Assembly (NCBI RefSeq): GCF_002778015.1
Contig: NZ_NJPP01000001.1
Location: 62,262 to 126,261, forward strand
Direction of reading: 5' to 3'
Length of the DNA: 64,000 nucleotides
Source of the DNA: Bartonella tribocorum
GTDB lineage: Bacteria; Pseudomonadota; Alphaproteobacteria; Rhizobiales; Rhizobiaceae
Below the pieces are notes generated by a model, which saw only the letters and a list, made by a program, of their open reading frames with translations, did no database searches and had not been told where the DNA came from. Positions 32,233-34,374 of the stretch are shown here, piece by piece (within the stretch, counting starts at the first letter, position 1; every line of letters begins with the position of its first letter). The position numbers were made by a program, and so were the translations under genes.

Positions 32233-33405
32233 TTATGCAAAAAAATCAACAATAAAGCGCTCATAAATAGCAGTAAGCGTTTCTACTGCATCGAGGGCGA
32301 TACATTCATCTACCATATGCATCGTTTGCCCTAGTAAGCCAAATTCAACCACGGGGCAATAATCTTTAATAAATCGCGCATCTGAAGTTCCACCAGACGT
32401 GGAACACTCTGGTAAACTCCCTGTTACACTTTTAATAGCCTTGGATAAAACCTGAATAAGTTTATCATTTTTGGTCAAAAAAACATCCCCTAAACTTGGA
32501 ATCCATTCAAGCTGATAAAAGGGATATTGATCACTATTATTTTTTGCTTCTACCAAAGCAAGACGCTTTTCAATTTCCCCCATCAATGTTTCTTTTGTCC
32601 AAAGATCATTGTAGCGTATATTAAAACGAACCGTTGTCTGCGCTGGAATAACATTGACCGCCAAATTACCGGTATCGATGGTTGTTAGCTCTAAATTACT
32701 GGGTTGAAAATTCTCTGTCCCTTGATCTAAAACAGTTTGTGTCAACGCTTGAATAAGCTTACTTGCCAAAGGCAAAGGATTGGCAGCCCGCTCTGGAAAA
32801 GCAACATGACCTTGGCGACCTTTCACGGTCATGATACCAGAAATCGATCCGCGGCGACCAATTTTGATCACATCACCAACAGTCTTGACGCTTGTTGGTT
32901 CTCCCACAAGAGCCGCCGTCCATTTTTCACCTTTTTTTTCTGCCCATTTGAGAAGTTTGACCGTACCATTAATAGCAGGCCCCTCTTCATCACCAGTAAT
33001 TAAAAGGCTTACCCTTCCTTGAATGGACCGTTTCTCAAGAACTCGCGCTAGAGCCGCAATAAAACAAGCGATACCACCTTTCATATCAACAGCACCACGC
33101 CCATATAATTTCCCGTGATCTATAACAGCTTCAAAAGGTGGATAAGTCCAATCTTCCAATGCACCTGGCGGTACGACATCCGTATGACCCGCAAACATAA
33201 GATGAGGTCCTTCGCTTCCCATTTTTGCATAAAGATTTTCAACATTATCTGTATTTTTATCCGTAAAAATAGGGCGCTCGACATGAAACCCCATTTTTTT
33301 CAAAAATTGTTCCAAAGTTGATAAAGCCCCCGCTTCACGAGGTGTAACAGAAGGACAACGAATAAGTGCCTGTAATAGTTGAAGTGGATCTGTAAGAACA
33401 GGCAT
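32233..33405 (-). CDS. dapE: succinyl-diaminopimelate desuccinylase
   Basis: DapE is a dizinc hydrolase that releases LL-diaminopimelate in lysine and peptidoglycan synthesis. The 390-residue M20 protein shows [11 protein letters not shown] (about residues 70-80), [10 protein letters not shown] (about 102-111), [12 protein letters not shown] (about 137-148), the dimerisation domain, and the C-terminal [11 protein letters not shown] and HMVDECI motifs with the last metal ligand. The start is set by GGGGAGG six bases before ATG 33405; the ATG at 33420 would overlap that site. A 222-bp gap with a hairpin separates it from the gene upstream. Confidence 0.96.
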
Positions 33406-33482
33406 AAAAAACCTCCCCATTTGTTATAAATCATCGGAACTTAAGGTTATTACGCTGAATGATAAAAAAGATAAAGCAAAAA

Positions 33483-33540
33483 CATTGAAGACACTCAGCA
33501 AACCAAGCAGGGGAGGACAATCGTGCTGAGAGCTTCAATG
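33483..33540 (-). ncRNA. terminator-like hairpin, possible small RNA or leader element upstream of dapE
   Basis: CATTGAAG pairs with CTTCAATG (8 bp) and, after a small internal loop, CTCAGCA pairs with TGCTGAG (7 bp). On the minus strand the loop of about 23 nt contains CCTCCCC, an anti-Shine-Dalgarno sequence. The stem is followed directly by TTTTTGCTTTATCTTTTTT, so it looks like a 3'-terminal sRNA hairpin read on the minus strand. It is 78 bp upstream of the dapE start and 87 bp after the YgjP-like gene. It could instead be the terminator of that gene. Confidence 0.5.
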
Positions 33541-33627
33541 GCTTCCTCATCATGCATGACAAAGCACACACACAACGAAACACTTAACAAAAAGTTCCGT
33601 TAAATATTGCTTTCATTGGAAAGTTTT

Positions 33628-34374
33628 TTACACCTCTAATTTATATGAATCGAAATTAATGGTGTGCAGTCTGGGAGAATTTTCTTTCAACCAAGCACGA
33701 TATGTTTTACTATCAGGGCAAAGTTTCTCACAAAGAGCCCAAAATCTTGGTCCATGATTCATTTCAACAAGATGCGCAACTTCATGGGCAACAACATACT
33801 CAACAACCTCTTTTGGTGCCATAACAAGGCGCCAAGAAAAAGAAAGACGCTTATCAATTGAACAAGATCCCCAACGACTTCTCGTATCTTTATAGCAAAT
33901 GGATTTAACTTTTCGCTCTACCTGATGAGCATAATGTGCCACCAAAGGTGTTATAATGAGTGCTGCTTGTTTTTTAAAAAAATCAGCAATGCGTCTTGGG
34001 AGATATTCTATTTGACCATAAACAATAATTTTAGGTTCTTGCTCTGCATCTGCTGTAACAATTTCTGTTACCCCACGCCCTTCTCTATGCTTGATGGTAT
34101 AGGAAACACCCAAAAAAGGTATCGTTGCCCCCTCTTGGAGATAAGCATTTTCTTGAGAAATTTGTACACGAGCAAGACGTGCCTCAATCCAAGACCGATT
34201 TTTTTCAATAAAGCTGTCAACTGTACAAAGACTTATCGCTGGCGGCGTTGTTACACGAATCTCTTGACTTCTGGCATCAACACGTAAGGTAAGACGGCAC
34301 GCGCACTTATTTTCCCGCACTCTTATAGGAATAGCGCGATTAGAAAAAATAAAATGCTTTACAGAAATGCTCAT
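33628..34374 (-). CDS. YgjP-like (DUF45, SprT-related) zinc metallopeptidase
   Basis: This 248-residue protein ends with the metalloprotease motif VVAHEVAHLVEMNHGPRFW (HExxH plus the downstream His, about residues 195-213), preceded by the family sequence DTRSRWGSCS (about 164-173). The domain is DUF45 (YgjP). These proteins are cytoplasmic and their substrates are unknown; a recent idea is a role in DNA or protein quality control, which I only note. It lies 32 bp after the alpha/beta hydrolase gene on the same strand. The ATG at 34374 is the probable start. Confidence 0.88.
   Translation of the reverse strand: MSISVKHFIFSNRAIPIRVRENKCACRLTLRVDARSQEIRVTTPPAISLCTVDSFIEKNRSWIEARLARVQISQENAYLQEGATIPFLGVSYTIKHREGRGVTEIVTADAEQEPKIIVYGQIEYLPRRIADFFKKQAALIITPLVAHYAHQVERKVKSICYKDTRSRWGSCSIDKRLSFSWRLVMAPKEVVEYVVAHEVAHLVEMNHGPRFWALCEKLCPDSKTYRAWLKENSPRLHTINFDSYKLEV

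Follow-up and report, generated by a model that had tools for sequence, protein, structure and literature searches.

A predicted EcfG-dependent small RNA with a C-rich loop, restricted to part of the genus Bartonella

We analysed a stretch of 64,000 nucleotides from Bartonella tribocorum, called the window in the following, in which an intergenic gap of ~220 bases on the minus strand separates a YgjP-like metallopeptidase gene from dapE and contains a terminator-like hairpin. The downstream M20 peptidase gene (33405–32233), found in 71 of 71 Bartonella genomes, is presumably dapE, the name given to it in the original prediction for this locus. Its mechanical open reading frame starts at 33420 and abuts the ribosome binding site of the gene; a start at 33405 is likelier. 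The features of the gap and its neighbours are:

33628–34374, minus strand: YgjP-like metallopeptidase gene, the upstream neighbour (Pfam PF01863, 8e-60)
33574–33598, minus strand: EcfG-type (general stress sigma factor) promoter by motif match, with GGAAC (33598–33594), 16 bases and CGTT (33577–33574)
33463–33568, minus strand: predicted small RNA gene, span of covariance model R1 (alignments A1/A2)
33541–33565, minus strand: possible 5′ hairpin H1 from folding, GCUUU g UCAU, loop GCAUG, AUGA g GAAGC
33483–33540, minus strand: 3′ hairpin H2 from sequence and folding, 8 + 7 pairs, terminator-like
33510–33516, minus strand: C-rich loop CCUCCCC (DNA CCTCCCC) with the conserved core UCCCC, predicted to be unpaired (sequence, folding)
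33464–33482, minus strand: U-rich tail TTTTTGCTTTATCTTTTTT, conserved
33447–33476, minus strand: probable dapE promoter, a conserved block with CTTTAT (33476–33471), 18 bases and TAATAA (33452–33447)
33412–33418, minus strand: dapE ribosome binding site GGGGAGG, ahead of the ATG at 33405
32233–33405, minus strand: dapE (M20 peptidase family), the downstream neighbour (Pfam Peptidase_M20 1.5e-40, M20_dimer 1e-24)

Read from 33540 to 33483 on the minus strand, hairpin H2 consists of CATTGAAG ct CTCAGCA, the loop CGATTGTCCTCCCCTGCTTGGTT and TGCTGAG tgt CTTCAATG. The original prediction had described a two-part stem of 8 + 7 base pairs and a CCTCCCC loop followed by a U-rich tail, and our analysis bears out both, with the loop motif at 33516–33510. 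For the 81-nt hairpin piece, the folding energy is −23.6 kcal/mol, compared to −13.65 kcal/mol for shuffled sequences (s.d. 2.5, n = 200; z −3.98), and 1 of 200 shuffles is as good. Within the loop, UCCCC is predicted to be unpaired with a probability of 0.91–0.98 in the window sequence and of 0.75–1.0 in the four relatives folded. The sequence of the U-rich tail is compatible with a terminator; the hairpin is absent from the output of the terminator scan, which was restricted to loops of 3–8.

The sequence GGAACTTTTTGTTAAGTGTTTCGTT at 33598–33574 directly precedes the predicted RNA and is an exact match to GGAAC-N16/17-CGTT, here with the spacer of 16 bases. The form GGAAC-N16-CGTT has been published as the EcfG1 motif of Rhizobium etli (PMC3892343). 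The loose pattern GGAAC-N16/17-YRTT is not enriched in the B. tribocorum genome (96 matches vs 201 for the reversed-pattern control). Therefore, the case for a promoter rests on position, T tract and conservation. The pattern GGAACTTTTT-N11-YRTT has three matches in the same genome (reversed-pattern control, one), which lie in the dapE gap, before nepR-ecfG and inside a 347-aa open reading frame. Across the 71 genus genomes it occurs 122 times vs 37 for the control: 65 sites are located before nepR (65 genomes), 34 in the dapE gap (34 genomes) and 23 elsewhere. Every one of the 42 genomes matched by the covariance model retains GGAAC in the gap. In the 40 of 48 loci that were parsed, the GGAACTTTTT block has a majority frequency of 0.98; the three 10-base blocks upstream of it reach 0.67, 0.64 and 0.82 and the one downstream 0.72. 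The −10 part varies among these 40 loci (CGTT in 17, CATT in 15, TGTT in 5, TATT in 2, another sequence in 1), and the nepR promoter likewise carries TATT or CATT at this position. A sigma-70 scan listed no minus-strand site for the RNA between 33540 and 33640.

The NepR family was detected by a family model in 69 of the 71 genus genomes, including that of B. tribocorum, where nepR is found on contig C43 beside open reading frames that resemble a kinase, phyR and ecfG. The genome contains the NepR-PhyR-EcfG system, of which only NepR was identified by family model. Among the EcfG-type sites elsewhere in the genus, L128/L135 precede what we assume to be a Dps-like gene and L131/L136 a presumed small lipoprotein-like gene; in these other Bartonella, the two genes are candidate members of the stress regulon. 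Genomes G048 (locus L043) and G047 (locus L048) keep the EcfG-type site, which is followed by a different terminator-like hairpin devoid of the C-rich loop; here, the predicted promoter outlives the RNA body.

The predicted RNA would start ~6 bases after CGTT and end in the U tract at ~33475–33464. Its length would be roughly 95–105 nt, with the hairpin apparently forming the 3′ half of a compact gene. We carried out the covariance search in other Bartonella species that the original prediction had proposed, using model R1 built from 35 sequences. Of the 71 Bartonella genomes, 42 gave a match, with one copy each; 35 of these 42 had contributed to the model, and both loop and stem are conserved. 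The RNA was found in B. elizabethae, B. tribocorum, B. grahamii, B. queenslandensis, B. vinsonii, B. koehlerae, B. taylorii, B. callosciuri and others. Genome G023 is probably that of B. henselae Houston-1, so that B. henselae is probably a carrier. R1 gave no match in B. bacilliformis Ver097 (G008), B. clarridgeiae (G015) and B. rochalimae (G037), nor in the larger, divergent genomes G003, G004, G014, G044–G046 and G057–G064. Among 151 family genomes, searched with stricter filters under which weak matches may be lost, only the B. tribocorum genome itself matched. In Rfam 15, only a tRNA exceeded the threshold in the window, and the segment 33300–33750 yielded only a chance match (E 2.6). No description of a Bartonella small RNA under an EcfG-type sigma factor was found in the papers searched; dapE is unmentioned in the main texts of PMC7717549, PMC5387305 and PMC3595295, whose supplementary tables may hold an unnamed entry. 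PMC7717549 presents a small-RNA catalogue of B. bacilliformis, which could not include the RNA if its strain resembles Ver097.

By DNA search, the gap has a counterpart in 48 of the 71 genus genomes, with five of the matches spanning just 23–60 bases around the tail and the block that follows it. Conservation was profiled by column in 40 of these 48 loci (L043 and L048 are included; L008, L023, L027 and L040, with the RNA, and L044–L047, without it, are omitted). The majority frequency is 0.64–0.67 over the first 20 bases after ygjP, 0.77–0.83 in the 5′ part of the RNA, 0.89–0.98 in hairpin, loop and tail, and 0.64–0.72 from the dapE promoter block to the ribosome site of that gene. The core UCCCC is nearly invariant, and the two bases ahead of it are C or T depending on the species. 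Of the exposed CCUCC loop that had originally been proposed, the C-rich loop is retained in this comparison; the motif CCUCC itself is not conserved and gives way to UCCCC as the core. The same profile bears on another reading, according to which the hairpin is a mere terminator of the upstream ygjP-like gene and its C-rich loop has arisen by chance. The ygjP-like gene does end close by, at 33628, and two genomes without the RNA (G029 and G038) show, as read by eye, another hairpin and T run in the gap. However, a terminator does not require the sequence of its loop to be conserved; here, hairpin, loop and tail are better conserved than the bases just after ygjP, and a conserved EcfG-type site is placed between the ygjP-like gene and the hairpin. 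We consider this explanation unlikely.

Folding and covariation were evaluated for both parts of the RNA. In alignment A2, H2 is paired in 100% of cells with almost no variation, i.e. it is conserved without covariation. Because H2 is nearly invariant, covariation is uninformative for or against it. Folded alone, the 5′ part reaches −3 kcal/mol or better in 43 of the 44 loci, with a mean z of −2.7 relative to letter shuffles. For H1 in the register of the window, 85.5% of cells are paired, and 15 of 500 shuffles reach its two-sided changes and 91 of 500 its score; in the register of the other lineage, 88.0% of cells are paired and 104 of 500 shuffles reach the score. We dropped H1 as a covarying hairpin, since direct counts gave weak support in both registers. 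H1 is not formed in two of the five sequences folded whole (L022 and L031), where its 5′ strand engages the U-rich tail. The top helix score (0.305) belongs to H1 in the register of the other lineage; a competing helix between GAGGA (33548–33544) and UCCUC of the loop (33517–33513) scores 0.297. This helix is the best-supported covariation in the RNA: 96% of cells are paired, compared to 64–75% in slid controls, and 1 of 500 shuffles is as high, with two-sided changes that trace back to one strongly varying column pair in related sequences. It was rejected as the main structure, because it shares bases with H1 and would require a linker of 3 bases to bridge the stem of 15 pairs, which is hardly feasible. 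GAGGA-UCCUC may represent a competing fold that masks the C-rich loop.

Could the locus instead encode a small protein, or an RNA of dual function? The frame MHDEEAIEALSTIVLPCLVC is present, with small changes, in the window and in 13 relatives. Against it stand the first ATG of the other lineage, which opens different frames, a one-base gap inside the frame and, by eye, the lack of a ribosome site before it. We regard a small protein gene or a dual-function RNA in some species as very improbable, and a coding reading of the RNA as a whole was rejected, given that the alignments hold no conserved frame.

The relationship between the hairpin and dapE required separate consideration. EcfG-type site, hairpin and dapE follow one another in this order on the same strand, an arrangement consistent with an EcfG-driven dapE mRNA in which hairpin and U tract form a leader attenuator and the loop may cover the dapE ribosome site. 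The original prediction had offered such pairing within one mRNA as one of its two readings, based on the complementarity of the dapE site GGGGAGG to CCTCCCC. We find this 7-base match in the B. tribocorum genome, with a duplex energy of −15.9 kcal/mol that is equalled by 2 of 37 leaders in the window. In addition, dapE is one of 5 open reading frames of at least 85 aa among the 25 GGGGAGG-ATG sites listed, and over 39 species the dapE leaders pair with the loop better than shuffled leaders do (mean longest run 5.03 vs 4.01 ± 0.14), as expected of any G-rich site.

Three lines of comparison nevertheless argue against an attenuator: (i) a promoter-like block located between hairpin and dapE, (ii) the course of the complementarity across species and (iii) the predicted folding of long leaders. 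For the first, the sequence following the hairpin, CTTTATCTTTTTTATCATTCAGCGTAATAA, contains a CTTTATC-like block that is found 62–72 bases ahead of the dapE start in 57 listed loci, a list that omits L004, where the block is present too. Of the 57 loci, 14 (from 13 genomes) lack both the EcfG site and the hairpin and still keep the block; it went undetected in the set of 14 genomes that are larger and divergent (L059–L072). The conserved block at 33476–33447 is, as judged from its sequence, the probable promoter of dapE itself, although it is a weak sigma-70 match and was not listed by the sigma-70 scan. If the block is the dapE promoter, the dapE mRNA would normally not include the hairpin, and the U tract would overlap the −35 region. 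For the second, the comparison of loop and dapE site, for which 39 of 41 species sequences were parsed (L043 and L048 were dropped), gives a longest Watson–Crick run of 4 in 16 species, 5 in 9, 6 in 11 and 7 in 3. The mean run of 5.03 obtained with the loop of each species itself is close to the 4.88 ± 0.11 obtained with swapped loops, and 38 of 300 permutations are as high. We therefore rejected dapE as a conserved target, its complementarity not being kept across species and the own loop pairing no better than swapped ones. For the third, the folding of the dapE leader, proposed earlier as a check, was performed, and long-leader folds pair the dapE site elsewhere. Finally, the mean duplex energy of loops with dapE (−9.0 kcal/mol) is weaker than with nepR (−13.6), comM (−18.5) or argB (−10.8). 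Pairing of loop and dapE site within a single mRNA thus did not withstand the comparison across species, and we hold the attenuator to be improbable.

Two observations on dapE records stand apart from this question. In G042 (Bartonella sp. AR 15-3), the dapE region occurs twice (C1:1535364-1535668 and 1549202-1549507), with a partial, stop-containing comM copy nearby, which looks like a local duplication. Record L225 is labelled Bacillus subtilis SK6B4, and a protein encoded in it shares 59% identity with the B. tribocorum dapE product, a level also seen in Rhizobiales records; the assembly is probably mislabelled or contaminated.

For a small RNA acting in trans, the question arises which ribosome binding sites the loop would meet. 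AGGGGR sites before ATG number 263 in the B. tribocorum genome (G000) vs 143 for the reversed-pattern control, and GGGGAGG-N3-10-ATG has 32 matches vs 17; loci were retrieved for 30 of these, 28 entered the analysis of reading frames and 25 were listed. G-rich ribosome sites are common, so that no target is singled out. The mean duplex energies given above were calculated with the loop of each species itself (nepR, n = 42; dapE, n = 39; comM and argB, n = 30 each), comM and argB being compared in 30 of 71 genomes. The latter two genes carry names assigned from resemblance.

Among these candidates, nepR shows a pattern that accompanies the RNA. Its ribosome site contains a run of at least 5 G in 41 of 42 RNA carriers (e.g. 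leader L121:4353-4382), the exception being B. tribocorum itself with 4 G, and at most 4 G in 23 of the 26 genomes without the RNA that were parsed (G064 was not). A long G run occurs without the RNA in G006, G047 and G048, and one ancestral change may account for the long run in RNA carriers. Watson–Crick runs between loop and nepR measure just 5–7, and in B. tribocorum 5 of 37 window leaders, as well as dapE (−15.9 kcal/mol), equal or beat nepR (−13.3 kcal/mol). A feedback could be envisaged in which the UCCCC(U) loop of a lineage-specific, EcfG-dependent small RNA pairs with the nepR ribosome site, lowers the anti-sigma factor and prolongs the stress response; we rate this proposal as doubtful.

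Taken over the whole locus, we consider it likely that the hairpin is the end of an EcfG-dependent small-RNA gene whose product acts in a GsrN-like manner on G-rich ribosome sites. The other reading of the original prediction, namely a small RNA exposing a C-rich loop, is well supported at the sequence level by the EcfG-type promoter, the compact conserved RNA, the terminator-like end and the occurrence in 42 of 71 genomes. Promoter and conserved RNA body together constitute good sequence evidence, to which the predicted open loop and the separate promoter-like block for dapE are added. In the proposed mechanism, stress would end the inhibition by NepR of EcfG, a sigma factor named RpoE in Bartonella, and RNA polymerase would initiate just past GGAAC-N16-CGTT (33598–33574). 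EcfG-dependent transcription would proceed for ~95–105 nt and stop at the hairpin and U tract. In the finished RNA, the 5′ region may form a small hairpin, and the large 3′ hairpin would present UCCCC open in its loop. In trans, the loop could then base-pair with other mRNAs, at their G-rich ribosome binding sites or in their leaders, and alter the translation or stability of these messages. Many Bartonella species probably make the RNA under stress.

Bartonella alternates between arthropod vector and mammal, and the general stress sigma factor has been implicated in this switch; B. quintana phyR is reported to be up 4-fold at 28 °C (PMC3595295). If confirmed, the RNA would add a post-transcriptional arm to the Bartonella stress response, as GsrN does in Caulobacter, and would offer one short gene for deletion experiments. 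As an EcfG-dependent, C-loop small RNA predicted for part of the genus, it would in addition be specific to a lineage; the genomes of B. bacilliformis, B. clarridgeiae and B. rochalimae that were searched gave no match.

Several described RNAs invite comparison. The Brt RNAs of Bartonella henselae (194–203 nt, nine copies, before trp regulator genes; PMC5387305) are likewise Bartonella-specific intergenic RNAs upstream of a gene, whereas the RNA predicted here comprises ~100 nt and is present in a single copy before dapE. Bsr6 of Brucella abortus is reported as an RpoE1-dependent small RNA with an RpoE1 box in its promoter (PMC12772402). By description, the predicted RNA would share the sigma-factor system and the promoter box with Bsr6, and R1 finds nothing outside Bartonella in the family genomes drawn. 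ReC64 of Rhizobium etli, an EcfG1-dependent non-coding RNA of 88 nt (PMC3892343), resembles the Bartonella RNA in its GGAAC-N16-CGTT promoter and in size. It differs in its position downstream of phyR-tcrY, and none of the 150 other family genomes drawn is matched by R1. GsrN of Caulobacter crescentus is a sigma-T/EcfG-dependent small RNA with an exposed C-rich loop and G-rich mRNA targets (Tien et al. 2018, PMC5869019). In GsrN, the C-rich loop is a 5′ loop; in the Bartonella RNA it is predicted to be open, yet is placed within the 3′ terminator hairpin. The Bartonella gene lies between the ygjP-like gene and dapE on contig C1, apart from the stress-response locus on C43 (6,215 bases), where the only loose-pattern EcfG site is that of nepR; proximity to the ecfG-phyR locus, a predictor of gsrN homologues, is thus not seen. 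We do not claim membership in GsrN proper, given the opposite position of the loop in the RNA and a locus not found near ecfG. The gsrN gene of C. crescentus is also distal to the stress-regulator genes, and both systems combine an EcfG-type promoter with a short RNA whose C-rich loop is expected to pair with G-rich mRNA sites. The likeness is one of proposed mechanism, by which GsrN is the closest system.
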